DNA of 64,000 nt from NCBI GenBank assembly GCA_021299695.1, contig JAJTEK010000018.1, positions 62,001 through 126,000 of the forward strand, written 5' to 3'. Numbering within the stretch: the first letter of the stretch is position 1; each line of letters begins with the position of its first letter. The DNA is from Pirellula sp. Lineage in GTDB: Bacteria > Planctomycetota > Planctomycetia > Pirellulales > Pirellulaceae. Shown here one piece after another: positions 1,318-16,115 of this stretch. The notes under the pieces were generated by a model. It did not search any database. It was not told where the DNA came from and saw only the letters and a list, made by a program, of their open reading frames with translations. Both the position numbers and the translations under genes were made by a program.

Positions 1318-1345
1318 CTGACAAATCGTCGCAATTCTCTACAAT
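1318..1345 (+). promoter_or_regulatory. Promoter of the nuo locus
   Basis: CTGACA (1318-1323) and TACAAT (1340-1345) are separated by 16 bp, each one base from the sigma-70 consensus. Transcription would start near 1352, just before the Rex-like dyad at 1358-1377 and about 145 bases before the chosen nuoA start. Confidence 0.6.
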
Positions 1346-1357
1346 ACTGCGGATTAG

Positions 1358-1377
1358 TTTGTGAAAAATTTCACAAA
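1358..1377. promoter_or_regulatory. Rex-type operator overlapping the start of nuo transcription
   Basis: A perfect 20-bp dyad with core TTGTGAA-AAAT-TTCACAA matches the Rex operator pattern TTGTGAA-N4-TTCACAA. Rex is an NADH-sensing repressor that in other bacteria controls respiratory genes, including nuo in streptomycetes. The site sits just after the predicted start point, which suits repression. No rex gene lies in this window. The sequence match is direct; the regulator is inferred. Confidence 0.7.
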
Positions 1378-2992: not shown

Positions 2993-4213
2993 ATGCCTTT
3001 GGACCTGATCGAATCGCCTGACTTGGATGCCGGCTACCGCGAAGGCTTGTGGACATTGAACTTCGGTCCGCAGCACCCAGCGACCCACACGACCTTGCGT
3101 CTGGTACTGAAGCTCGACGGCGAGATGGTCGTCGAAGCCGATCCAGACATCGGATTTCTGCACAGCGGATTTGAAAAGCTTGCCGAGGTCCTCGACTACA
3201 ACCAGTACGTGACGATCGTCGACCGGATGAACTACATCTCGCCGATGGCCAACGAAATCGCTTGGCACCATGCCGTCGAAGGCCTTCTGGGAATCGAGTT
3301 GACCCCTCGATGCAAGTACATCCGTACGATCTTTGCCGAGTTGATGCGCATCCACGATCACTTGCTGTGCACGGGCACCTGTGTGCTCGATCTCGGTGGG
3401 GCGACGGCCTTCATGTATGCGTTCAACGAGCGAGAAAAGATCTACGAGATCTGCGAGAGGGCCAGCGGCCAGCGGTTCCACACGAGCTACACCCGCGTAG
3501 GGGGCTTGCTCTACGACGTGACCGACGACTGGGTCGCGATGGTGCGTGATTTCTGCAAGACCTTCCCGCGAGCCTACCGGGACTTTGCCGGCCTTGTGAT
3601 GAAGAATCGGATCTTTGTCGAACGGACCCGCGATGTGGGAGTTTTGAGCAAAGCCGATGCGATCGCGGGCGGGGCGACCGGACCGGTTGCACGCGCAAGC
3701 GGAGTTGAGCGGGATCTGCGTCGCGATGAGCCTTATCTGGCCTACAACGATCTGGATTTCGATGTCTGCTGTGCTCAGGGTGGCGATTGCTATTCACGCT
3801 TCCAAGTCCGCATGATGGAGATGGTCGAGAGTCTCAAGATCATCGAGCAAGCGATCGAAAACCTTCCTTCTGGACCGGTTTTCATTTCCGGTACGGGCAA
3901 GGAAGGCTTGCCGGACAAGACCGAGGTCTATCGGAGCATCGAAGGCTTGATCCATCACTTCGAAAACATCATGCCCAACCGCCAAATGCCTTCTCCCAAG
4001 GAGTCGTACTACGGTGCGACCGAGTCCCCCAACGGCGAGCTTGGCTATTACATCGTCTCGGACGGTGATTTCAAAGCCTACCGCGCCCGAACGCGACCAC
4101 CTTCGGTGCTTCACTTTTCTCTATTTAACCGCATGATCCGAGGCTGCATGCTCAGCGACGTGGCCGCTGTGCTCGGTAGCATCAACATCATCGCTGCGGA
4201 GTTGGATCGATGA
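2993..4213 (+). CDS. nuoD: NADH-quinone oxidoreductase subunit D
   Basis: The 49-kDa subunit, which lines the quinone pocket. At 406 residues it has normal length. It contains the conserved NFGPQHPATHTTLRLVL segment near the N-terminus (HP loop), IGFLHSGFEKLAE, and the C-terminal ESPNGELGYYIVSDG and RTRPPSVLHFS segments. The last bases overlap nuoE as ATGA, a typical coupling arrangement. Confidence 0.96.
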   Translation: MPLDLIESPDLDAGYREGLWTLNFGPQHPATHTTLRLVLKLDGEMVVEADPDIGFLHSGFEKLAEVLDYNQYVTIVDRMNYISPMANEIAWHHAVEGLLGIELTPRCKYIRTIFAELMRIHDHLLCTGTCVLDLGGATAFMYAFNEREKIYEICERASGQRFHTSYTRVGGLLYDVTDDWVAMVRDFCKTFPRAYRDFAGLVMKNRIFVERTRDVGVLSKADAIAGGATGPVARASGVERDLRRDEPYLAYNDLDFDVCCAQGGDCYSRFQVRMMEMVESLKIIEQAIENLPSGPVFISGTGKEGLPDKTEVYRSIEGLIHHFENIMPNRQMPSPKESYYGATESPNGELGYYIVSDGDFKAYRARTRPPSVLHFSLFNRMIRGCMLSDVAAVLGSINIIAAELDR

Positions 4214-4704
4214 GCGAACTGAGCGAAAACGCAAAACAAGTCATCGCCGAACACTTGCCTCGCTACCCGAGCAAGCAGGCCGTCACCTTGCCGGCCTTGC
4301 ACGTGGTGCAGCAGGAGCGACGGTACGTGAGCAACAAAGCGATGGAAGAGATCGCCGAATTGCTCGAACTCTCCCCGGCCCAAATCAGCGACACCGCATC
4401 GTTCTACGGATTCTTTCGGACCGAAGAGAATCCGCTCGGGCAAAAACGGATTTGGGTATGCCGCTCGCTCCCATGCATGCTCCGAGGAGGCGAAGAGCTC
4501 TTAGCGGCCCTTTGCGAAAAATACCATATTGTCCCAGGCCAAACGACGGCCGATGGGAAACTGACGATCGAGCTGGCCGAGTGCCTCGGGGCTTGCGACG
4601 GCGCCCCGTGCATCCTGCTTGAAGATGAACTGCACCTGCGATGCAGCCTCGAAGATGTCGAACGCATCGCCAACGAGCCAAACGCTCCAACCAAGAAAGC
4701 TTGA
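4210..4704 (+). CDS. nuoE: NADH-quinone oxidoreductase subunit E
   Basis: A thioredoxin-fold [2Fe-2S] subunit (cluster N1a) of the NADH-input module. At 164 residues it is a typical length. The four ligands fit the C-x4-C (CRSLPC) and C-x3-C (CLGAC) pairs, and the family segment ISDTASFYGFFRTEE is present. The start overlaps nuoD by 4 nt. Confidence 0.95.
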   Translation: MSELSENAKQVIAEHLPRYPSKQAVTLPALHVVQQERRYVSNKAMEEIAELLELSPAQISDTASFYGFFRTEENPLGQKRIWVCRSLPCMLRGGEELLAALCEKYHIVPGQTTADGKLTIELAECLGACDGAPCILLEDELHLRCSLEDVERIANEPNAPTKKA

Positions 4705-4718
4705 AGCGGGAACCCACC

Positions 4719-6053
4719 ATGAATCCAACGGAATTCAAACCGGTATTGTTAGGTCGAGTCGGCAAGCCCGATAGCCAGTCGCTTGCCACGTACCGCGCCG
4801 ATGGCGGCTATGAGGCTTTGGCGAAATCCTTGAAGATGGCCAACACCGAGGTCATCGATTTGGTCAAGAACTCTGGCCTACGAGGACGCGGCGGGGCAGG
4901 GTTCCCGACGGGACTCAAGTGGACGTTTCTGCCCAAGGATGTCCAGGGTCCGATCTACCTGTGCATCAACGGCGACGAGAGCGAACCGGGTACTTTCAAC
5001 AACCGCGTGCTGATCGAAGAGGATCCGCATCAGGTTCTCGAAGGGATCGTCATCAGCAGCTTCGCCACCCGCGCGACGACCGCTTATTTCTATCTTCGCT
5101 ACGAGTATGGCCGATGCTATCGAGCCCTTCAAAAAGCGGTCGATGAGATGTATGCGAACAATCTGCTCGGCAAGAACATTCTCGGATCGGGCTACGACCT
5201 GGACATCTATCTCCACCGCGGGGCCTGTGCGTACATCTGCGGCGAAGAAACCGGCTTGATCGAAAGCCTCGAAGGCAAACGAGCTTGGCCCCGGATCAAG
5301 CCACCGTTTCCGGCCATCGAAGGCGCCTTTCGCAGGCCTACTGTCGTCAACAACGTTGAGACGATGGCGTGTATCCCGCACATCATCAACCACGGAGCCG
5401 AGTGGTTCCAATCGATGGGAGTCCCCAAGGACCCCAACAACCCGCGCGATGCAGGTTCCTACGGACCGAAGCTCTACTGCATCAGCGGACACGTCAACAA
5501 GCCCGGCCTGGTCGAACTGCCGATGGGAATCTCTGCCCGCGATCTGATCGATCAGCATGCCGGTGGGGTTTGGAAGGGGCGAAAGGCCAAGGCGGTAATT
5601 CCCGGGGGCTTGAGCATGGGATTCATGACCAACGCCGAACTCGACACACCGCTGGACTTCAATGGTCCAGGACGCGTCGGATGCCTTGGACTCGGGACCG
5701 CTGCGGTGGTCGTCATCGATGACCAGACCAGCATGGTCGATGTCCTCTACAACGCCTGCCGATTCTTCGCCCACGAATCATGCGGACAGTGCACCCCATG
5801 CCGCGAAGGGACCGCTTGGTCGACCAAGATCCTCGAGCGCATCCGAGAGGGCAAAGGCAAGCTCAGCGATATCGATCTGCTTATGGAAATCGCCAATTCG
5901 ATTGGGACCATTCCTGGCACGACGATCTGTGGACTTGCCGACGGGGCCGCTTGGCCGATCAAAACAGCGATCAATAAATTCCGTGGCGAATTCGAAGAGT
6001 ACATCAAAAGCGGACGGCGCAGCGAGAGCTTAGCTCTTGCTGGCGCTCACTAG
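4719..6053 (+). CDS. nuoF: NADH-quinone oxidoreductase subunit F
   Basis: The NADH- and FMN-binding subunit with cluster N3. The FMN/NADH sites show as GRGGAGFPTGLKW and GDESEPGTFNNR. The [4Fe-4S] ligands are in ESCGQCTPCREG plus a later cysteine in TTICGLADG. I chose ATG 4719, 14 nt after nuoE, because the protein then starts MNPTEFKPVLLGR as in relatives. The open frame extends back to 4641 inside nuoE, but that part is not family sequence. The product is 444 residues. Confidence 0.95.
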   Translation: MNPTEFKPVLLGRVGKPDSQSLATYRADGGYEALAKSLKMANTEVIDLVKNSGLRGRGGAGFPTGLKWTFLPKDVQGPIYLCINGDESEPGTFNNRVLIEEDPHQVLEGIVISSFATRATTAYFYLRYEYGRCYRALQKAVDEMYANNLLGKNILGSGYDLDIYLHRGACAYICGEETGLIESLEGKRAWPRIKPPFPAIEGAFRRPTVVNNVETMACIPHIINHGAEWFQSMGVPKDPNNPRDAGSYGPKLYCISGHVNKPGLVELPMGISARDLIDQHAGGVWKGRKAKAVIPGGLSMGFMTNAELDTPLDFNGPGRVGCLGLGTAAVVVIDDQTSMVDVLYNACRFFAHESCGQCTPCREGTAWSTKILERIREGKGKLSDIDLLMEIANSIGTIPGTTICGLADGAAWPIKTAINKFRGEFEEYIKSGRRSESLALAGAH

Positions 6054-6090
6054 CCCGAAGCACTTAACACTTTTTGGGAAAGCAATAAAA

Positions 6091-7581
6091 GTGGTCAAAG
6101 TCAAAGTCAATGACATCGAGGTCGATGCAGATCCTAAGGACAACTGCATCTTGGCGGCTCGAAAAGCTGGGATTGAGATCCCACACTACTGCTGGCACGA
6201 ATCGCTCTCGGTCGTAGCCTCATGCCGCATGTGCTTGGTCGAAGTCGGCGAGACCAAACCCGACGGAACCGTCGCCATGGGCCCCAAACTCGTACCGGGT
6301 TGCCAAACGCCGATCAAAGAAGGGACCATCATCCGGACCGATTCGTCCAAGGTGAAAACCTCGCAACAGATGACCCTCGAGCTGTTGCTATTGAATCATC
6401 CGCTCGATTGCTCGATCTGCGATCAAGCGGGCGAGTGCTACCTGCAGGATTACACCTACAAGTATGGCAAGGCCCACAGCCGACTCGATGAGCCGAAAAT
6501 CCAACGTGAGGACAAGTACCACATCGGAGAACAGATCGCCCTGTTTACCGACCGCTGTGTCATGTGCACCCGCTGCGTTCGCTTCACAAGAGAGATCAGC
6601 GGAACGGCCGAGCTCCAAGTCGTCGCTCGGGGATCGCACGAAGAGATCGATGTCTTTCCAGAGACTCCCTGCAACAACAAGCTCGCTGGCAACGTCGTCG
6701 ACCTGTGCCCCGTCGGTGCCCTTTGCAGCAAGGACTTCCTCTACAAGAAACGGGTCTGGTGGCTCAAGCATGCCGATAGCGTGTGTACGGGTTGCTCGAC
6801 GGGCTGCAGCGTTCAAGTCGATCAAAACGACAACAAAGTCTACCGGTTACGCCCGAGGGAAAACCCACAAGCCCAAGGGCACTTCATGTGCGACGAAGGT
6901 CGGTTTGGGTTCAAATACATCCACGACGAGCGACGCATCAAGTACCCGAGACTCAAGAACCCGCCTTCGAGCGCCAATGCGACGGTCCGCTCGACAGCTC
7001 CCTCGGATCTGTCGTTTGCCGATCCATGGCCAACGGTCTTGGCCGAAGCTCGCAAGCGGATCCACTCGGCGATCCAAAACGACCCCTCGGGTTTCGTCGT
7101 CGTCCTGTCCCCTTTCATGACGGTCGAGGAAGCTTACCTGCTGGCCTCGTACATCAAGGGAATCGATGCGAGAACCAAGTTGACTCTCGGGCCTGTTCCT
7201 GTGGTAGGCAGCGACGATCCTGCGCCACTTCGAGGGCTCGGTCATCCATGCCGAATCGCTCGGAAAATCCTCGGCCAGCGCCTGGTTCGTCGTCGGTGGA
7301 TCCAGCACTGGTTGGGTCAACGAGAAGATCGACCAAGCCGTCGGAACCCCGTCGCTGTTGATCGTCCAAGACATCTTCCCATCCCCACTGAGCGAACGGG
7401 CCGATGTGGTCTTCGCTGCAGGATCGTTCGCCGAGCGGGATGGAACCTACGTCAACCATGCGGGGCTAGCCCAAAGCACCCATGCATCGATTCGTCCTCC
7501 AGAGGAAGCCCGAGCCGACGGCCGGATTCTTATGGAACTGGCAGGGCGTGCGGGCTTGTTCAACGCCATGGCGTTGCGTAA
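6091..7581 (+). CDS. nuoG: NADH-quinone oxidoreductase subunit G, frame-disrupted
   Basis: NuoG carries the remaining iron-sulfur chain of the peripheral arm. The N-terminal half is intact: [2Fe-2S] ligands in PHYCWHES, SCRMC and PGCQTP; the His/Cys cluster in HPLDCSICDQAGEC; two further clusters in DRCVMCTRCVRF and LCPVGALC; and CTGCSTGC of the molybdopterin-type domain. The likely start is GTG 6091. After VPVVGSDD (to about 7218) the frame turns into an Arg-rich non-family stretch ending at 7581. The true continuation is in the next frame from 7214. As given, the gene encodes only the N-terminal two-thirds of a normal product. See the separate entry for the remainder. Confidence 0.88.
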   Translation: MVKVKVNDIEVDADPKDNCILAARKAGIEIPHYCWHESLSVVASCRMCLVEVGETKPDGTVAMGPKLVPGCQTPIKEGTIIRTDSSKVKTSQQMTLELLLLNHPLDCSICDQAGECYLQDYTYKYGKAHSRLDEPKIQREDKYHIGEQIALFTDRCVMCTRCVRFTREISGTAELQVVARGSHEEIDVFPETPCNNKLAGNVVDLCPVGALCSKDFLYKKRVWWLKHADSVCTGCSTGCSVQVDQNDNKVYRLRPRENPQAQGHFMCDEGRFGFKYIHDERRIKYPRLKNPPSSANATVRSTAPSDLSFADPWPTVLAEARKRIHSAIQNDPSGFVVVLSPFMTVEEAYLLASYIKGIDARTKLTLGPVPVVGSDDPAPLRGLGHPCRIARKILGQRLVRRRWIQHWLGQREDRPSRRNPVAVDRPRHLPIPTERTGRCGLRCRIVRRAGWNLRQPCGASPKHPCIDSSSRGSPSRRPDSYGTGRACGLVQRHGVA

Positions 7582-7696
7582 GGAGATCGGAACCAAGATC
7601 CCTGAACTCTCGGCGATTGCCACCGGAGATCTCGGGGAGCATGGAGTGCGACTTGCCAAGTTCGCCAATCACACCGCTGCGGCCAAAAGCTCATAG
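7214..7696 (+). pseudogene. nuoG: C-terminal remainder of nuoG in the other frame
   Basis: Frame 2 from 7214 reads TILRHFEGSVIHAESLG and later WFVVGGSSTGWVNEKIDQ, LLIVQDIFPSPLSERADVV and GTYVNHAGLAQ, which fit the C-terminal part of NuoG-type molybdopterin oxidoreductase domains. It ends with TAG at 7694-7696, 33 nt before nuoH. Between VGSDD and ILRHFEG I would expect about 20-30 more residues from related NuoG proteins, so the lesion is probably a deletion plus frame change, not a single base. GACGAT at the junction could be the scar of a recombination between short repeats, or of a misassembly. Confidence 0.75.
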
Positions 7697-7729
7697 CGCT
7701 CCAGGGAGCCCTCACAAGGAACACCGTTG

Positions 7730-8920
7730 ATGATCAAAAGCTTACTCGAGTTTTGGCCTGTCCTATGGCCCGCCCTGGCGGCGATCGGAGTGATCCTCGC
7801 CGTTGTGCCGTTCCTAGGTCTTTACATGACCTTTGTCGAGCGAAAAATCGCTGCTTACGTTCAGGACCGAGTCGGGCCCAACCGGGTCGGACCTTTTGGA
7901 CTTTTCCAAGCGATCGCCGACGGCATCAAGATCTTTCTCAAAGAGCAACTCATCCCCGACCACGTCTTTACGACACTGTATTTTCTGGCGCCGGCATTCA
8001 GCTTGATCACCGCCATGTTCGCGCTGGTCGTCATGCCCTTTGGGCCCGTCGCGACGGACTACAAAGATGGGTTTCGATTCGTCGTGGCTCCAGGAATCGA
8101 TATCGGCATCCTGATGATGCTTGCGATCAGCTCCCTGTCGGCCTACGGGATCATCATCGGTGGCTGGGCCTCGAACAACAAATACTCCATCTACGGTGCG
8201 ATCCGTTCCTGCGCACAGTTCATCAGCTATGAGATTCCGCTTGGGCTTTCGATCCTCGGTGTCATCGCGATTACCGGCTCGCTGAACATCGAGAAAATCG
8301 TCGAAGCCCAATCCGGGAGTCTTCTGGATTGGAACGTCTTCTGGCAACCTGTTGCGATGCTGGTGTTTTTCACCGCAGCGTTGGCTGAAACCAACCGACT
8401 CCCGTTTGACTTACCCGAATGCGAGCAAGAGCTCGTCGGTGGTTTCCACACTGAATATAGCGGGATCAAATTCGTTCTTTATTTCTTGGCCGAATACACA
8501 CACATTGTCACGGTCAGCTTCTTGACGGCACTGCTGTTCCTTGGCGGATGGCACTTTCCAGGCCTTCCAGGCCCCTCGGGGGCTTCCACGCCGATCCTGC
8601 TGCTCGGCTTGGGCGTGCTGCTGGCCAAGGTCGCGTTGGTGGTCTTGGTGATCATCCTTTTGCGTTGGTCCTTGCCCCGATTCCGATTCGACCAATTGAT
8701 GGGTTTGGCCTGGAAGGGTCTGATTCCGCTCGGGCTTATCAATCTCGTCGGAGTTGCGATTGTGCTGTCGCTCGGACTCCCCAAGCATCTTTTGGTTGCT
8801 ACGGTCATCCTTCCTGTCCTTGCTGCCTACTACAGCGCCGCGAAGTTTAATGCTTCCATGGCAAGCACCGACGCAATGCGACAAGGACTCTCACCCCAAG
8901 GAGCGGTCTCGTATGAGTGA
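7730..8920 (+). CDS. nuoH: NADH-quinone oxidoreductase subunit H
   Basis: A membrane subunit at the junction of the two arms, forming part of the quinone tunnel. It has about eight or nine helices and the hallmark VERKIAAYVQDRVGPNRVG, then LADGIKIFLKE-like sequence and AETNRLPFDLPECEQELVGG. ATG 7730 is preferred (AAGGA at 7716-7720); a TTG lies one codon upstream. The product is 396 residues. The 3' end overlaps nuoI by 8 nt. Confidence 0.96.
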   Translation: MIKSLLEFWPVLWPALAAIGVILAVVPFLGLYMTFVERKIAAYVQDRVGPNRVGPFGLFQAIADGIKIFLKEQLIPDHVFTTLYFLAPAFSLITAMFALVVMPFGPVATDYKDGFRFVVAPGIDIGILMMLAISSLSAYGIIIGGWASNNKYSIYGAIRSCAQFISYEIPLGLSILGVIAITGSLNIEKIVEAQSGSLLDWNVFWQPVAMLVFFTAALAETNRLPFDLPECEQELVGGFHTEYSGIKFVLYFLAEYTHIVTVSFLTALLFLGGWHFPGLPGPSGASTPILLLGLGVLLAKVALVVLVIILLRWSLPRFRFDQLMGLAWKGLIPLGLINLVGVAIVLSLGLPKHLLVATVILPVLAAYYSAAKFNASMASTDAMRQGLSPQGAVSYE

Positions 8921-9578
8921 TCCCCAGAAAAACGATCCCCAGAAAAACGAAGCCCAGATGAACAAGCCATCGGCTAAGAAATCGGTCAAGTGGGGAGAAG
9001 CTCCCAAGATGAGCATCCTGGACGCTCTGTATTTGCCGGCGATTGCCTCCGGATTGGCAACTGCAGTCCGGCATGCGGTATCGGGCAAAGCGACCACGCG
9101 TCAGTACCCGGAAGTCGAACCCGAGATTCCGCCTAATTACCGTGGTGTTCATCGCTTGAATCGCGACGAAGCAGGCCGTGTCAAATGCGTTGCTTGCTAC
9201 ATGTGCCAGACGGCTTGCCCGGCCAATTGCATCGAGATCATTGCGGCTCCGGCCCCCAAGGACGATCCGCATTGGAAAGATCGCGACAAGTTCCCTGCGA
9301 CGTTTACCATCGATGAACTCCGATGCATCTACTGTGGGATGTGCGAAGAAGCTTGCCCGGTCGATGCGATCGAACTGACGAGCATCTACGACCTGACGGG
9401 TATGACCCGGGAAGAGATGATCTTCGACAAAGAGAAACTCCTGTCGGTCTTCGATGAGACGGTCAAGTCCGGTCAGGATCCGGTCAGGACCAACCGAGGG
9501 AACCTTGGTCCCGCCGCCGAAGTTTCACCGACGGCCAAGGGTGCTCCGCCCCCACCGGGCCGCGGGAAGTCAGGCTGA
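8913..9578 (+). CDS. nuoI: NADH-quinone oxidoreductase subunit I
   Basis: A ferredoxin-like subunit with clusters N6a and N6b. Two ligand sets are seen: CVACYMCQTACPANC and CIYCGMCEEACPVD. ATG 8913 overlaps the end of nuoH, and the open frame further upstream is only the nuoH shadow. The product is 221 residues. The N-terminus has a short repeat (DPQKN twice), and a Pro/Gly-rich tail follows the ferredoxin core, both outside the conserved fold. Confidence 0.95.
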   Translation: MSDPQKNDPQKNEAQMNKPSAKKSVKWGEAPKMSILDALYLPAIASGLATAVRHAVSGKATTRQYPEVEPEIPPNYRGVHRLNRDEAGRVKCVACYMCQTACPANCIEIIAAPAPKDDPHWKDRDKFPATFTIDELRCIYCGMCEEACPVDAIELTSIYDLTGMTREEMIFDKEKLLSVFDETVKSGQDPVRTNRGNLGPAAEVSPTAKGAPPPPGRGKSG

Positions 9579-9690
9579 TTTTTTCCAGCCAACGATTCAG
9601 CAGATAGATACTTCAGACACACAAAATTTCAGTGAACACAGATTCAGTGACTAGACACTCGATCGATAGAAACGACGTAAGAGGCCATCA

Positions 9691-10512
9691 GTGAACCCTT
9701 TACCGATAGACCCGAAAAATTTGCCGCTGGTTAACGGCGATCCATTTCAGGGGAATCTCGCCCAGATTCTTCTGATGGTGATTCTCCTCGGGGCCGTTGC
9801 TTACTTGCTGCTCCAACACGGGCTGATCAAGTCGAAAATGATGGCTTGGGCCGGTGCAGGGCTTTTCGCGTTCGCGGCCCTGATGGCTTTTACTTCGATT
9901 CCGATGCAACTCGATTCGCTTGTCCGCATGTGCTTTAGCATTTTGGCCGTCGCTGGCGGAATTGCGTTTATCACCACCCGAGAGCCTGTCCATGCAGCCT
10001 TGGGGTTTGCCACGGCGGTCCTTTCCTCCTGCGGGGTGATGTTCATGCAGTCGGCTTATTTCATCGCCGCTGCGACCATGATTGTCTACGCCGGTGCGAC
10101 CATCATCATCTTCTTGTTCGTTTTGATGTTCGCACAAAAAGCACAGCTCCAATGGTACGACGTTCAGTTGACGAGCCCCGTGATCGCAACGGTGGTCGCT
10201 ACAAGTTTGCTTTTGGCGATCGCTTGGAGCGTTTCGGAGTCTGGTGAAATCCTGCCGGTCAAGCTCGACCTGACGCGACCCTATAGCTTGGCCGAAACGG
10301 GTCCATCTCCTGGTACGGTGATGCCTCCGGTCCCCGAAGCGAGCATGACCCAAGAGCAACTCAATGCGTTTGTTCCGGCCAAAACCTCGGGATTGGGTCG
10401 TTCGATGTTTACCGATTATCTGCTTGCGATCGAATTGGCCGGTACGGTCCTTTTAGTCGCCACGCTCGGAGCGATCGTCTTGGCACAGAAACCAGAAAGG
10501 GACCTGTCGTGA
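9691..10512 (+). CDS. nuoJ: NADH-quinone oxidoreductase subunit J
   Basis: A membrane subunit of complex I with five predicted helices. The family signature is in AYFIAAATMIVYAGATIIIFLFVLMF. It starts with GTG at 9691 after a 112-nt gap from nuoI, the largest gap before nuoN, which could hold an internal promoter. At 273 residues it is longer than many NuoJ proteins, because of a long loop (about residues 180-235) before the last helix. It overlaps nuoK by 4 nt (GTGA). Confidence 0.93.
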   Translation: MNPLPIDPKNLPLVNGDPFQGNLAQILLMVILLGAVAYLLLQHGLIKSKMMAWAGAGLFAFAALMAFTSIPMQLDSLVRMCFSILAVAGGIAFITTREPVHAALGFATAVLSSCGVMFMQSAYFIAAATMIVYAGATIIIFLFVLMFAQKAQLQWYDVQLTSPVIATVVATSLLLAIAWSVSESGEILPVKLDLTRPYSLAETGPSPGTVMPPVPEASMTQEQLNAFVPAKTSGLGRSMFTDYLLAIELAGTVLLVATLGAIVLAQKPERDLS

Positions 10513-10997
10513 GTCACTCCGAAGTCCAGAACCTCCTGCTCTTAGGAGGCATTCTCTTTGCCCTAGGATTGATCGGTTTTCTGACCCGACGATCTTTGAT
10601 TTTGATGTTTCTGTCCCTGGAAACCATGCTTTCGGGGGTGAGCCTCAACCTCATCGTCTTCTCGAAATACCATCAGAATTATCAAGGCCAGATTCTGGCC
10701 GTCATGGTGCTGACCATCTCGGCATGCGAGGCAGCGATCGCTCTGGCGATGGTCGTGTCTCTCTACCGACGCAAAGCCACCTTGGACGTTCAGGCCTGGG
10801 ACGATTTGAGCGAAACGATCCTGCCGAAATCCACCTCGGGTGATTACCAAGACCTCGAGCACGAAGAAAATTATCCCAAACTCAGTCCTGCAGGATTGGA
10901 TCCCTTGGACAGACCGGTCCCTAGTTCCATGCAAGCATCCTTAGATCAAGACCAGAAAACCTCTCCCATCGTGTCGGAGGTCAACCAGCGTGCTTAA
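10509..10997 (+). CDS. nuoK: NADH-quinone oxidoreductase subunit K with C-terminal extension
   Basis: A small three-helix membrane subunit with conserved buried glutamates. The core (about residues 1-100) shows LSLETMLSGVSLNLIVFS and ACEAAIALAMVVSLYRRK. NuoK is usually about 100 residues; this one has 162 because of an acidic, Pro/Ser-rich tail of about 60 residues that should be cytoplasmic. The start overlaps nuoJ, and the end overlaps nuoL by 8 nt. The role of the tail is unknown. Confidence 0.93.
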   Translation: MSHSEVQNLLLLGGILFALGLIGFLTRRSLILMFLSLETMLSGVSLNLIVFSKYHQNYQGQILAVMVLTISACEAAIALAMVVSLYRRKATLDVQAWDDLSETILPKSTSGDYQDLEHEENYPKLSPAGLDPLDRPVPSSMQASLDQDQKTSPIVSEVNQRA

Positions 10998-12957
10998 TTT
11001 CGAATCTCTCGTTTGGCTTATTCCACTTGCACCCCTGGTAGGCTGTATCGTCTGTACGATCCTGTCGTTCCGTGGTGACAAACACTACGCGCACATTCCT
11101 GCGATCGTATCCTTGCTCATCTCGGCCGCATGCGCTCTGATGGTCCTGCTTCAATGGAATGCCGAAGCGTCCGATACTGGATTTCAGATCGCCGAAGGAT
11201 ACCGCTACCTGGAAATCGGCAACGTGGACCTCAATCTAGCGCTCCGCGTCGATACGCTCTGCTTGACGCTCCTTTCGGCCGTCACGTCGATCTCGGCGAT
11301 GATCGCGATCTACTCCAAAGGCTACATGCACGGCGACGACGGTTATGCTCGTTACTTTGCAGTCTTCTGTGGGTTCGTCTTCTCGATGACCATGCTGGTC
11401 CTCTCCCATAACTTGCTCATGATGTACGCCTTCTGGGAAGGAGTCGGGACCTGCAGCTACCTGTTGATCGGTTATTGGTTCCGCAAACCCTCGGCAGCCC
11501 GTGCTGCGACCAAAGCGTTTTTGGTCAACCGCATCGCCGATACCGCGTTCCTCTTTGGGATCCTGCTCCTGGCCTACGCGATCGGACACACCGATGTGGG
11601 GGCATCGCAAAGCTGGTTTGCCCGTCTGGACTTCCAAACCATTTTCGATGCAGCGCCGGTCCTGGCTGAGAAACACGCAGGGCTTCTATCGACCATCGCT
11701 TGGCTGCTGATGATCGGTGCGATTGGAAAGTCAGCCCAGTTCCCATTCCACGTTTGGTTGCCCGATGCGATGGAAGGTCCGACGCCTGTCTCGGCCTTGA
11801 TCCACGCCGCTACGATGGTCACCGCAGGTGTTTACCTGATGGCTCGACTAGCTCCACTTACGGTCTTGACCCCATCGGTCCTGATCACCGTCGCTTGGCT
11901 CGGCGGAATCACCTCGCTGATCGCAGCGGTTATGGCGCTCTACCAAGACGACCTGAAACGAGTTTTGGCGTATTCGACCGTCAGTCAACTCGGCTATCTC
12001 TTCATGGCGCTCGGAACCGGTGCGGTCAAGGACTTGATGACCGTTGCGGTCGTCGCCGCGATGTTCCACTTGGTCACCCACGCTTTCTTCAAGGCTTTGT
12101 TGTTCCTCTCGGCCGGTAACGTGATGCATGCGATGGGGGACGTGATCGACATGCGAGAGTTTTCAGGGCTCAAGCGGGTGTTGCCCAAGACCAATATTCT
12201 CTTTGCGATCGGTGCTGCGGCTCTCGCGGGCGTTCCGCTCCTGGCAGGCTTCTTCAGCAAAGACTCGGTGCTTGCTGTGCTGCTCGATGCGAGCTCCGAT
12301 ACGATGGTCGGCGGTCATTTTTCTGTATTGCTTGGGATCGGTTTTCTCACGGCATTCCTGACGGCGATCTACACGTCGAAGGCCTACTTCAAGACGTTCC
12401 ATGGCCCGGAAAAGGTGCCCGCGGCCGCAGGGCACCACGCGCACGATGCTTCCAATGTCATGCTAGCCCCGATGGCCGTACTTGCCCTCGGTGCCTTGCT
12501 CGCGGGAGCACTGCTAGGTCCCACGGGCAAGATTTCTGAGTATGTCTCCAAAACACCTGGACTCCATCACCACGAGCACTCTGAGCCTATGTGGCTCTTG
12601 GTAGTCTCCTCGCTGATCGCCCTTGCGGGTGTCTTCGTCGGCTTCACCATCAGCCACAAATCCCCAGCCACCGACGGACTGGGAAAAAGCATTGCAGATT
12701 TTGGTCGCAATCGCCTTTACATCGATTGGTTCTACAACTTGGCAATCGTTCAACCGATGCTTTCGTTCGCGAAAGCCTTGGAATGGTTCGATACGAACAT
12801 CATCGGTGCTCTGACCGATGCGGTTGCGGATTTGCCGAGAATCTTTGGGCTCGCGGGCCAACGGATCCAGACAGGACGGGTTCCATCCTACAGCCTGCTG
12901 ACCGCCGTCGGTGTCGCTTTGGTCGCCATTTGGATCGTTACGAGAGCAAGTTGGTAG
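10990..12957 (+). CDS. nuoL: NADH-quinone oxidoreductase subunit L
   Basis: An antiporter-like proton-pumping subunit with a long C-terminal lateral helix. The 655-residue protein has many helices and the conserved MMYAFWEGVGTCSYLLIGYW, FPFHVWLPDAMEGPTPVSALIHAATMV and YSTVSQLGYL motifs. A His-rich loop (GHHAHDASN, HHHEHSEP) lies near residues 480-530. GTG 10990 overlaps the end of nuoK. nuoM starts 2 nt after the stop. Confidence 0.96.
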   Translation: MLNFESLVWLIPLAPLVGCIVCTILSFRGDKHYAHIPAIVSLLISAACALMVLLQWNAEASDTGFQIAEGYRYLEIGNVDLNLALRVDTLCLTLLSAVTSISAMIAIYSKGYMHGDDGYARYFAVFCGFVFSMTMLVLSHNLLMMYAFWEGVGTCSYLLIGYWFRKPSAARAATKAFLVNRIADTAFLFGILLLAYAIGHTDVGASQSWFARLDFQTIFDAAPVLAEKHAGLLSTIAWLLMIGAIGKSAQFPFHVWLPDAMEGPTPVSALIHAATMVTAGVYLMARLAPLTVLTPSVLITVAWLGGITSLIAAVMALYQDDLKRVLAYSTVSQLGYLFMALGTGAVKDLMTVAVVAAMFHLVTHAFFKALLFLSAGNVMHAMGDVIDMREFSGLKRVLPKTNILFAIGAAALAGVPLLAGFFSKDSVLAVLLDASSDTMVGGHFSVLLGIGFLTAFLTAIYTSKAYFKTFHGPEKVPAAAGHHAHDASNVMLAPMAVLALGALLAGALLGPTGKISEYVSKTPGLHHHEHSEPMWLLVVSSLIALAGVFVGFTISHKSPATDGLGKSIADFGRNRLYIDWFYNLAIVQPMLSFAKALEWFDTNIIGALTDAVADLPRIFGLAGQRIQTGRVPSYSLLTAVGVALVAIWIVTRASW

Positions 12958-12959
12958 TC

Positions 12960-14447
12960 ATGAATATCCTCATCCCCTTACTGATCCTCGTCCCCCTGGC
13001 GTCTGCCTTGGTGATCTTTTTCTCCGGACCTAGAGCCAAAGCGATGGTTCCGTTTGGAATGCTTGCCGCAGCCCTGACGCTGTTGCTGAGCATCGGCCTT
13101 TGCTTCCAGGTCTACCAAGCTCCTTCGACGCTGACTCAAAACGCCGGCGCTGCACAAGCGACCATCGCGCCCAAAGTCAGCTTCATCTCCGAAACGCTGC
13201 GGTTTGTCCTGCCGGTGTCGGTCGCTGGTCAGCCCATCGATTGGCAACTGTCGTTCGGGGCCGACGGTATCTCCGCATTGATGGTTTTGCTTACGGGCAT
13301 CGTCGGCTTCTTCACGGTTTGGTTGGCCAGCAGCCAAATTCGTGTCAGGACCGAAACCTACATCGGGCTCCTGCTCGTGGCGATCTCGATGCTCATGGGG
13401 GTCTTTCTTTCGATGGATCTCCTCTCGTTTTATATCTTCTTCGAAGCGGTCCTGATCCCCTTGATTCTGCTGATTCATGGCTGGGGCGATGGCAAGAATC
13501 CCCAAGCCGCCTCCAAGCGATTTTTGTTGTTCACTCTCGCCGGTAGCATTCCGATGGTCGTCGGGTTGATTTCCTTGGCGATGGCTCCGCTGGCCAACGG
13601 CCAACCCTCGACGGTGGCGTTCAGCGAACTTTCAGCGATCGCGGCTCAAGCAGCCAGCAGTGGCGTTCCCATCGGTAGCAAAGACTCCTGGGCCGTATGG
13701 CTGCTGCTGTTGGGATTTGGGATCAAGCTTGCCATCCTTCCGTTGCACACATGGCTTCCGATGACCTACGCTGCGGCTCACCCGAACACCACGTCGCTGA
13801 TCGCTTCGGTGGTCGCCAAGCTTGGCCTCTACGGACTGCTGCGAATCGTCATTCCTTTGACGCCTGTAGCGTTGTCGATCGAAGCCCAATTGGTCGTAGG
13901 GACCCTCGGTGCGATCGTGATTGTCTACGGCGCTTTGGTGGCGTTGTCCAAGGACAATATGCGTGAGGTACTGGCCTTTAGCTCCCTGTCCCACGTCGGT
14001 TTCATCACGCTCGGACTCATGAGCATGACGCGTGAGGGACTCGGAGGGGCCGCTCTACAAATGTTCAACCACGGATTGATCACTGCGGCGATGTTCTGGA
14101 TCCTCTCGATGCTCGAGCAACGGCACGGTCCGATCCGCTTGCGCAGCGAGGATCAAGGGATGGCTGCTCAGTATCCCAAACTGGCCGTGCTGCTGGTGTT
14201 CTTTACCCTGGCAGGAGCGGGGCTCCCTGGTCTCAACGGATTTGTCGGCGAGTTCCTGACCCTCTCAGGCATGATGAGAGTGTGCACGACCCTCGTTGCG
14301 ATCGCTGTGCTCGGTACGGTCCTGGGCGCTTGGTACGGCCTACGCATCGTTCAGCGATTGCTCTTCGGGAGCAATGGCACACGCTACGACAACCACAATC
14401 GCCCCCTGGCAGGAGTCGACCTGAGGGCTCAGGAATGGATTCCGTAG
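12960..14447 (+). CDS. nuoM: NADH-quinone oxidoreductase subunit M, truncated by TAG
   Basis: An antiporter-like proton-pumping subunit. Family motifs are clear: FYIFFEAVLIPLILLIHGWG, LPLHTWLPMTYAAAHPNTTSL and FSSLSHVGFITLG. ATG 12960 is the natural start just after nuoL; the longer open frame to 12591 is shadow. The frame stops at TAG 14445-14447 after GVDLRAQEWIP, giving 495 residues. The same frame then continues with 53 sense codons that look like the missing last helix, so the gene appears cut by a nonsense change. TAG is used as a normal stop elsewhere here (for example nuoF), so recoding is unlikely. Confidence 0.9.
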   Translation: MNILIPLLILVPLASALVIFFSGPRAKAMVPFGMLAAALTLLLSIGLCFQVYQAPSTLTQNAGAAQATIAPKVSFISETLRFVLPVSVAGQPIDWQLSFGADGISALMVLLTGIVGFFTVWLASSQIRVRTETYIGLLLVAISMLMGVFLSMDLLSFYIFFEAVLIPLILLIHGWGDGKNPQAASKRFLLFTLAGSIPMVVGLISLAMAPLANGQPSTVAFSELSAIAAQAASSGVPIGSKDSWAVWLLLLGFGIKLAILPLHTWLPMTYAAAHPNTTSLIASVVAKLGLYGLLRIVIPLTPVALSIEAQLVVGTLGAIVIVYGALVALSKDNMREVLAFSSLSHVGFITLGLMSMTREGLGGAALQMFNHGLITAAMFWILSMLEQRHGPIRLRSEDQGMAAQYPKLAVLLVFFTLAGAGLPGLNGFVGEFLTLSGMMRVCTTLVAIAVLGTVLGAWYGLRIVQRLLFGSNGTRYDNHNRPLAGVDLRAQEWIP

Positions 14448-14609
14448 GTCGCTGTCGGTTTTCTTTGCCTCTACATCGGCTTGTTCCCCATGAGGACGAT
14501 GAAGCTCTTCCAAGCCGATACCGACCGATTGGCCACGTTGGCAGAACCTGTTTCCAAACAGATTCACCGCGACATGGACACGCTCGTCGTCGAGTCAACA
14601 AATCCTTGA
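14448..14609 (+). pseudogene. nuoM: C-terminal remainder of nuoM after in-frame TAG
   Basis: In the nuoM frame, the codons after TAG read VAVGFLCLYIGLFPMRTM and run to TGA at 14607-14609. NuoM proteins normally end with a hydrophobic helix of this kind (xxxxIGLYP) followed by a short polar tail, which fits. Translation here would need readthrough or a corrected base. Without the TAG the product would be 549 residues. Confidence 0.7.
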
Positions 14610-14663
14610 GTCCATGATCCACCATCACCTAATCAGCAAAACGAAAACCCGTGAGGCCCAACC

Positions 14664-16115
14664 GTGGATTTGATGCAAATCACCAAAGCTGCTGCCACCC
14701 ACTTGACCCCTGAGATCATCCTTCTGATCGGTGGAACTTTGGTCATGTGTGCCTCGGTACTGAGGGGCAAGTCGCAGCGGGAAGACATCTACGCACAGCG
14801 AAACAACTATGCAGTCGCATCGCTCATCTGCCTACTAGCGGCTATAGCGGCCCGATACTACCGAGGGGTCCCCGAGATCGGTAATGCAGATCTAGGACTA
14901 TTCCGATTCGACGCTTCGGCCCTGGCCGCAGAACGGCTTACCTTTCTCGGAGGCATGATCCTCATTCTGATGTCTTGGTCGACGGCTCCGAAAGGACGCT
15001 TGGCCGAGTACTACGGATGCCTGTTGATCATCCTGGCTGCCATTCCAATCGTCGGTGCATCGAACGATTTGGTGTCGATGTTTCTGGGTCTCGAGCTCGT
15101 CAGTTTCCCGACCTATATCCTCCTTGGAATTGTCCGGAACGATAACGCTGGAGCCGAAGCTTCCTTGAAGTACTTTCTCCTGAGCGCCTTTGCCTCGTGC
15201 TTTTTCCTCCTGGGTGTGAGCTACCTGTTTGGGTTTTGTGGATCGACCAACTTGGCGGTTATTCAGGGGTCTTTCGGTGAAGGGAAGCGATTGATGGCCT
15301 TGGGGCTGCTCCTGGCGATCTGCGGACTGGCGTTCCGGATCACCGCCGTGCCTTTTCATTTTTACGCTCCCGACGTTTTCGAGGGGACCAGCGTGACGAT
15401 GGCCGGTGTGATGAGTTATCTGCCCAAGGTGGCTGGGTTTGTTGCCCTGATTCGATTGCTCGGAACAGGAACGCTCAGTCCAGGTGCAAGCGGTGTCGTC
15501 ATCCCAGTGCTTTTGGTGTGCGCGGCACTGACGATGTGCATAGGCAACATCCTTGCGGTGGCTCAGAACAATCTCCGACGTATGATGGCCTATTCGAGCG
15601 TCGCCCATACGGGTTACCTGCTGCTTGCTCTGGTCGCTTTGATCCGGCAGGATGCGAGCCCTGGAGTGATGTACTCCTACTTGGCAGCCTATGCAGCGAT
15701 GACCTTGGGACTGTTTGCTTGCCTAGGTGAAATCGAGGCCGCTGGGGGCAAGTCCCATTTGATCGGGGACCTCTCCGGCATGTTTCAGCGCAGACCTGCT
15801 GCTTCGATCGGCTTGACCGTCGCTCTGATCAGTTTGATCGGATTGCCGTTTACCGCAGGTTTCTGGGCCAAGTTCATGGTGTTCGTCGGAACGGTCGCCG
15901 ACCGTCAAACCGATTCGATCAGCATGTTGATGGGAGCTCTGATGGCCATCAACGCGGTGATCGCTGCGAGCTATTACTGGCGGATCTTGAGCACCCTTTA
16001 TGCCAAGAGCGAATCGAATGTACCGTTGCGGGTGTTTCGTCCAAGCTTGTTCTTTGCCTACACCATCTGCACGGTACTGACGATCCTTTGGTTCTTTGTC
16101 CCATCGGCCATGTAA
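14664..16115 (+). CDS. nuoN: NADH-quinone oxidoreductase subunit N
   Basis: The third antiporter-like subunit and last gene of the locus. The 483-residue, multi-helix protein has the conserved ELVSFPTYILLG, PFHFYAPDVFEGTSVTMAGVMSYLPK (trimmed family form) and MAYSSVAHTGYLLLA motifs. GTG 14664 is used; ATG 14673 is possible. Its stop shares one base with the next start. Confidence 0.95.
   Translation: MDLMQITKAAATHLTPEIILLIGGTLVMCASVLRGKSQREDIYAQRNNYAVASLICLLAAIAARYYRGVPEIGNADLGLFRFDASALAAERLTFLGGMILILMSWSTAPKGRLAEYYGCLLIILAAIPIVGASNDLVSMFLGLELVSFPTYILLGIVRNDNAGAEASLKYFLLSAFASCFFLLGVSYLFGFCGSTNLAVIQGSFGEGKRLMALGLLLAICGLAFRITAVPFHFYAPDVFEGTSVTMAGVMSYLPKVAGFVALIRLLGTGTLSPGASGVVIPVLLVCAALTMCIGNILAVAQNNLRRMMAYSSVAHTGYLLLALVALIRQDASPGVMYSYLAAYAAMTLGLFACLGEIEAAGGKSHLIGDLSGMFQRRPAASIGLTVALISLIGLPFTAGFWAKFMVFVGTVADRQTDSISMLMGALMAINAVIAASYYWRILSTLYAKSESNVPLRVFRPSLFFAYTICTVLTILWFFVPSAM

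Follow-up and report, generated by a model that had tools for sequence, protein, structure and literature searches.

Rex usually represses its targets with NAD+ and is released by NADH, as described in the available parts of two reports (PMC8836258, PMC5355995). In Streptomyces avermitilis, according to the portion of that study to hand, Rex controls nuoA1-N1, cydA1B1CD, atp and rex-hem, and protects positions -3 to +25 at cydA1 and -42 to -16 at nuoA1, the protected sequences being given as TTGTGACCTGCTTCACAT at nuoA1 and TTGTGATACGGTTCACGA at atpI (PMC5355995); the footprints at cydA1 and nuoA1 thus provide precedents for both promoter occlusion and an early block to transcription. The original prediction had held that Rex controls nuo in streptomycetes, which is borne out for nuoA1-N1 of this species (PMC5355995, as far as available).

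The window (the whole 64,000-nucleotide stretch of Pirellula sp. DNA that was analysed) contains a dyad ahead of a nuo (complex I) operon which resembles the S. avermitilis sites in its operator consensus, in its complex I target and in its location within or just after the promoter (PMC5355995, available part). The window core, TTGTGAA-AAAT-TTCACAA, also fits the Staphylococcus aureus Rex consensus TTGTGAAW4TTCACAA letter for letter, although the S. aureus targets named in the accessible text belong to fermentation and nitrate respiration and do not include complex I (PMC2883068). Our preferred reading, to which we assign a probability of about 0.93, is that the nuo operon is controlled by the host's own Rex repressor, with this dyad as its operator. 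This interpretation, put forward in the original prediction, is supported by a host rex gene, by conservation of the dyad and by an operator that tracks rex across the class.

A predicted Rex operator at the nuo promoter

Positions 1358–1377 read TTTGTGAAA-AA-TTTCACAAA, with two perfect 9-bp arms flanking a central AA. The predicted operator (1358–1377, no strand assigned) is a conserved inverted repeat with its core, TTGTGAAAAATTTCACAA, at 1359–1376; this 18-bp core matches the Rex operator (ROP) palindrome TTGTGAA-N4-TTCACAA with zero mismatches. The coordinates and the exact Rex-consensus core that had been proposed are correct, whereas perfection over 20 bp does not hold in the strict sense, the central AA not being self-complementary.

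A promoter search places a -35 element, CTGACA, at 1318–1323 and a -10 element, TACAAT, at 1340–1345, both on the + strand; TGACAA and TACAAT are invariant in 10 aligned leaders. The pair matches the consensus at 10 of 12 positions with a 16-bp spacer, and is the one such promoter found in 1200–1600, compared with a mean of 0.1 in shuffled sequence. The operator lies 12 bp past the -10 hexamer and 120 bp ahead of nuoA, that is, in or beside the promoter (recognised by its consensus match) of a respiratory gene, as expected for a Rex operator. Transcription would be expected to start near 1352, which would put the operator at about +7 to +26; the proposal that a -35/-10 pair precedes the dyad, with the dyad just beyond the predicted start point, therefore stands.

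Exact TTGTGAAN4TTCACAA occurs once in the 5.49-Mb genome, compared with 0.010 expected from the base composition of the window. Sites with at most two mismatches number 16, as against 9 for the reversed-pattern control, and comprise the nuo site, one site with a single mismatch and 14 with two. Further Rex targets in this genome were considered and rejected: the single-mismatch site falls within katG, and the 14 two-mismatch sites (L003, L004, L304–L315) each lie inside a mechanically called open reading frame of at least 80 aa, one of which (around L314) may be spurious.

Two further features of the flanking DNA were observed. The nuo leader at 1346–1500 is predicted to fold better than its shuffles (z = -2.65), with a long GC-rich stem between the operator and nuoA. 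Farther upstream, at 25–320, three alike copies can be seen by eye around GGC(G/A)TAAAGCCG(A/G)(T/A)CGGAGGCCAA, each with a small dyad.

The genes downstream are all on the + strand. The nuoA gene (complex I chain 3; 1498–1878; Pfam PF00507, 94.8 bits) has a probable ribosome-binding site, GGAGG, read from the sequence at 1486–1490; comparison with relatives makes the GTG at 1498 behind this site its most likely start, rather than the ATG at 1468 which opens the mechanical open reading frame. It is followed by a nuoB frame of uncertain start (1833–2465; PF01058 on 1878–2462), nuoC (2484–2987; PF00329), nuoD (2993–4213; PF00346) and nuoE (4210–4704; PF01257); the remainder of the operon, nuoF to nuoN (4641–16115), was assigned by reading the translations of the open reading frames. 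By eye, the nuoG frame (6037–7696) seems broken: a 514-aa open reading frame ends apparently out of frame, overlapped by one in another frame (7358–7696) which resembles the NuoG C-terminus, through either a sequencing error or a real frameshift.

The Rex protein of the host

The host genome holds one PF06971 match, the 211-aa rex gene (G000:C20; 1483–2118 of locus L005), so that a Rex is encoded alongside the operator. The protein scores above the cut-off of several NCBIfam models, among them three that are Rex equivalog or subfamily models: NF003995 (244 bits, cut-off 126), NF003992 (233, cut-off 226) and NF003993 (226, cut-off 217). Both expected domains exceed their cut-offs, the winged helix PF06971 with 62.2 bits and the Rossmann domain PF02629 with 76.5 bits, and the Rossmann motif GVGNLG occupies residues 92–97. 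A rex homologue, on whose presence the original prediction had staked itself, is thus found through three NCBIfam models together with PF06971 and PF02629; the genome check that it proposed yielded this one rex gene, but no second exact site in the 5.49 Mb.

The best PDB match of the host protein is Thermotoga Rex (171 bits), of which 12 residues touch DNA, Arg48 and Lys49 being key, according to the available part of that report (PMC8836258). Nine of these 12 are identical in the host, with Arg48 corresponding to host Arg51; the changes are Lys49 to Arg, Glu34 to Arg and Lys43 to Asn. Two contact residues deemed conserved in the accessible text of that report (PMC8836258) differ in the host protein, which counts against control of nuo by this Rex.

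The rex gene is preceded by one of aminotransferase type that includes a phosphopantetheine domain, and it is convergent with a ccoP-like cytochrome gene. Autoregulation, which occurs in Streptomyces and is not a defining property, was rejected, and its apparent lack is a point against the Rex reading: none of 31 rex loci has an operator with at most two mismatches close upstream (one locus, L055, covers only about 190 bp upstream), and the nearest matches are about 1 kb upstream in L045 and, in the host locus, downstream inside the ccoP-like gene.

Conservation upstream of nuoA and nqrA

Upstream of the nine closest named NuoA loci (73–99% identity), TTGTGA-N6-TCACAA is present in 9/9 with zero mismatches; the closest of these relatives, at 92–99% identity, include three Pirellula metagenome assemblies. 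With at most two mismatches allowed, the motif precedes 50 of 80 named NuoA loci, in which as much as 400 bp ahead of the match (less in some) was scanned and which overlap the genomes of the family sample (for example L141 and G010). The alignment of 10 leaders has TGACAA, TACAAT and the operator arms as its invariant blocks; across relatives, the arms are nearly invariant and the centre is variable. Conservation of the dyad upstream of nuo in close relatives, the second point on which the original prediction could have failed, is therefore confirmed by the nine exact sites and the invariant arms.

In the family sample, the operator (at most two mismatches, within 400 bp) is ahead of 24 of the 29 nuoA loci drawn from the best 30 NuoA matches; base-shuffled family upstream regions reach two mismatches in 54 of 3000 cases, and fewer in none. 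Across a phylum-wide sample, 30 of 148 genomes, 3 of the 148 being of the host family, have an exact site. A second, more distant type of NuoA (about 33–40% identity, mostly in open frames of 200–300 aa) is also seen in family genomes, alone or beside the first.

The operator is likewise ahead of 26 of the 30 nqrA loci in the family sample under the same rule, to which a wider upstream range adds that of G029 (27/30). NqrA was identified through PF05896 for all 30, and through three NqrA domains for two of these. All but two of the 30 genomes (the exceptions being G004 and G025) are without a nuoA of the window type, and the operator precedes nqrA in 25 of those 28. This exchange of nuo for nqr suggests that the regulator is tied to the function and not to the gene.

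Several loci read individually (L069, L070, L073, L074, L078, L088, L090, L091 and L093) have a Rex-type operator ahead of nqrA and no window-type nuoA. Further exact operators stand before Rieske protein genes (L066, L085), a multihaem cytochrome c gene (L297) and, as two sites, a cytochrome c gene (L075). Among 15 stretches read around the sites of genomes G219 and G206, nuoA and the multihaem cytochrome c gene of L297 were recognised.

Co-occurrence of operator and rex

Across 118 genomes of the class (completeness at least 92%), rex is present in 76 and absent from 42. The 76 rex-bearing genomes contain 138 exact sites compared with 6 reversed-pattern sites, while the 42 others contain 19 and 14, respectively; in family f3, whose 29 genomes are all without rex, the numbers are 14 and 13. 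NuoA matches of at least 117 bits were taken in 75 of the 104 class genomes with a match, one of which (G291, L222) was left out at a contig end, leaving 74 upstream regions. A site is present in 55 of 58 of these regions with rex, compared with 1 of 16 without (Fisher p = 7e-12), or 1 of 14 once two short rex-less regions are left out (G245, about 160 bp, and G260, about 210 bp upstream). Because related genomes have a common ancestry, p-values for the link between operator and rex overstate independence. Absence of rex goes together with absence of the site in three families (f3, f63 and f66), easing this problem of shared ancestry without removing it; within f63, the site is found in none of 5 regions without rex and in 17 of 18 with it. 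Of the 11 class families scored, 9 yield evidence for an operator at nuoA.

The host family shows the link too, though less strongly, with the site in 44 of 47 genomes that have rex and in 5 of 10 without (p = 0.003; the second-type nuoA of G020 is not included). Five genomes (G009, G041, G044, G051, G059) are without both. Set against control by Rex, 5 of the 49 site-bearing family genomes (G015, G031, G038, G050, G052) have no rex hit, even when searched with the complete Rex protein; genome incompleteness predicts about 2.5 such cases, and among the five is G038, whose completeness is rated at 99% and which carries an exact site at nqrA. Also counting against it are rex-bearing genomes without a site: in the class, G205, G231 and G228 (which has a 3-mismatch remnant), and in the family table, G007, G029 (which carries a 1-mismatch site farther upstream) and G016 (3 mismatches).

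A hairpin and T-run between promoter and operator in relatives

The leaders of many relatives contain an additional element. Ahead of the operator, a terminator-like hairpin followed by a T-run is found in 63 of 100 nuo leader clusters (65% identity), including those of L027, L176 and L177; it is GC-rich, lies between the promoter match and the operator, and has arms that vary by lineage yet still pair. After removal of 17 duplicates among 132 operator leaders, and of L025 and L224, in which the best match is not a nuo operator, a strict rule finds such an element within the 70 bases upstream of 68 of 113 unique nuo operators; as controls, the 70 bases before that stretch give 4, the reverse strand gives 5, and shuffled sequences give 78 of 1130. 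Counted back from the operator, the T-run begins at a distance of 13–19 bases (most often 16), and in 45 of the 68 at 16 or 17. A promoter (at least 5/6 of TTGACA, 16–18 bp, TANNNT) is found upstream of hairpin or operator in 58 of 100 clusters, the window's clade included, compared with 22 of 2000 shuffles; where both are found, 6 to 32 bases separate the -10 from the stem, and many other Planctomycetia have their best promoter match farther upstream than the window does.

The window's own clade has no hairpin and T-run, either in the leader clusters or in the alignment of 10 leaders, and its predicted promoter and operator show the simple form; in all, 37 of the 100 clusters, this clade among them, are without the element. 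Folding of the 42 upstream bases agrees only partly with the rule-based counts (z below -1.5 in 12 of 24 nuoA and 12 of 25 nqrA family leaders). Two known RNA classes were rejected as the source of the hairpin among 17 loci upstream of nuo: no Rfam RNA reached its gathering score, and a tRNA was present in one only (L223, 2395–2490). The suggestion that the operator core doubles as a -10 (TAWNAT, at many Pirellulaceae nuo sites) is not general, many leaders having AAACCC or AAATCC.

We consider it possible, at a little under even odds, that the element in relatives is an attenuator driven by a Rex roadblock; this would cover most of the sampled operator-bearing relatives and adds to the preferred explanation, and is no alternative for the window. 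Operator-bound Rex would stall RNA polymerase on the T-run, leading to termination, and removal of Rex by NADH would allow read-through. The narrow spacing of the T-run at nuo favours this, as does the association of the element with operators: at class nuoA it is found in 38 of 56 loci with an operator and in 1 of 18 without, the single exception being G228 with its operator remnant. The geometry is also reasonable, given that Escherichia coli polymerase halts 14 nt before an EcoRI-Q111 roadblock in the available account (PMC5499547), a distance at which the end of the RNA would fall within the opening bases of the T-run. Among 44 loci in which the longest upstream open reading frame points away from nuo, 30 keep the element (not deduplicated; frames called mechanically), so it is not simply a neighbour's terminator.

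The evidence at nqrA is mixed. There, no more than 3 of 27 satisfy the strict rule (7 of 270 shuffles), which speaks against attenuation, as do the nuo clusters without the element; a relaxed rule (longer loops, fewer T) finds 14 of 27, compared with 4 in the stretch before and 45 of 270 shuffles, and 13 of the 14 start 15–18 bases ahead of the operator, close to the nuo spacing. The relaxed rule is, however, less specific at nuo, where it picks out 84 of 113 but also 25 in the stretch before and 319 of the 1130 shuffles, and no hairpin was visible by eye at the apparent Rex sites before Rieske and cytochrome genes. In addition, a strong terminator would stop transcription even without Rex, so the hairpin would have to be weak or overcome.

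Alternatively, the hairpin may serve as a 5′ mRNA stabiliser, or as an insulator against read-through from upstream, uncoupled from Rex, a role to which we likewise give somewhat less than an even chance. Its position near the inferred 5′ end, shortly after the -10, is what such a role would predict, whereas the like spacing from the operator at two unrelated targets and the near absence from operator-less nuoA are not, and a stabiliser needs no T-run.

Returning to attenuation, the broader proposal, which is speculative and in our estimate falls short of an even chance, is that Rex of Planctomycetia governs respiratory NADH oxidation at the unrelated nuo and nqr systems, in many lineages through a DNA-bound, NADH-gated attenuator. 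In these lineages Rex would be a roadblock about 16 bases beyond the start of the T-run, leaving access to the promoter open; NAD+-bound Rex would turn a leaky leader hairpin into a terminator, and NADH would undo this. The conserved promoter–hairpin–operator leader of these relatives offers a directly testable case of repressor-assisted termination.

Other readings of the window dyad

Crp sites have the form TGTGA-N6-TCACA, the same geometry as Rex sites. The dyad fits this form, which does not discriminate between the two, so that sequence alone cannot decide against an operator for a Crp/Fnr-family regulator. HTH_Crp_2 is above cut-off in 35 of 60 family genomes, and in four genomes (G016:C84, G018:C1, G030:C169, G043:C51) rex has a Crp-type gene as a neighbour, no more than about 2 kb away. 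The distribution of the domain nonetheless makes this reading very unlikely. A search of the host genome with PF13545 (HTH_Crp_2) gave three matches, all below cut-off (best 24.4 bits compared with 27); the domain is wholly absent from eight family genomes with a nuoA or nqrA site (G002, G004, G005, G012, G017, G031, G033, G054), although G031 also has no rex hit; and across the family sample the site does not follow Crp, being present in 27 of 34 genomes with it and 22 of 23 without (p = 0.13). A chance palindrome, or merely an RNA hairpin of the nuo leader, is barely credible: the transcribed dyad is predicted to fold as an 8-bp hairpin, but it has no T-run behind it, base identity is conserved beyond pairing, with nearly invariant arms around a variable centre, and the occurrence of the operator follows rex.

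Proposed control and comparison with known systems

Under control of nuo by Rex, at low NADH and high NAD+ a Rex dimer would bind the operator just past the start point and block initiation or early elongation from the CTGACA-TACAAT promoter. As NADH builds up, Rex would take it up and leave the DNA, whereupon complex I would be made and NADH re-oxidised, so that the predicted control couples the supply of complex I to the NADH/NAD+ ratio. Binding, NADH response and repression at the window are here extrapolated from established Rex biology. The predicted position of the operator is close to that of the S. avermitilis cydA1 footprint (PMC5355995, available part).

Compared with S. avermitilis, in which the accessible text lists eleven direct target genes or operons, the host has one clear site, and whereas S. 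avermitilis rex has its own operator, the 31 planctomycete rex loci, from another phylum, have none close upstream (PMC5355995). The leader of the relatives has partial precedents only in the literature searched on Rex, roadblocks and terminators, as far as those sources were available (PMC6504234, PMC4348106). At Chlamydia trachomatis trpRBA, YtgR-dependent termination occurs at an operator, and an attenuator is predicted, and not validated, in the same intergenic region (PMC6504234). The likeness is that a repressor downstream of the promoter ends transcripts; YtgR, however, answers to iron and not NADH, and the available text describes no hairpin at fixed spacing (PMC6504234). Bacillus subtilis sivA-rocG similarly has a leaky terminator upstream of a CcpA roadblock operator, but there the terminator is that of sivA, the gene upstream, and no fixed spacing is claimed in the part available (PMC4348106).

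For planctomycetes, the literature searched holds no description of Rex control, in keeping with the original prediction that it is little described in this phylum; an earlier comparative or regulon-database prediction is possible. A main comparative study of Rex is reportedly that of Ravcheev and co-workers, from 2012. Rex operators at nuo were already known from Streptomyces, and the analysis supports the view that the predicted operator in the window extends them to the planctomycetes.
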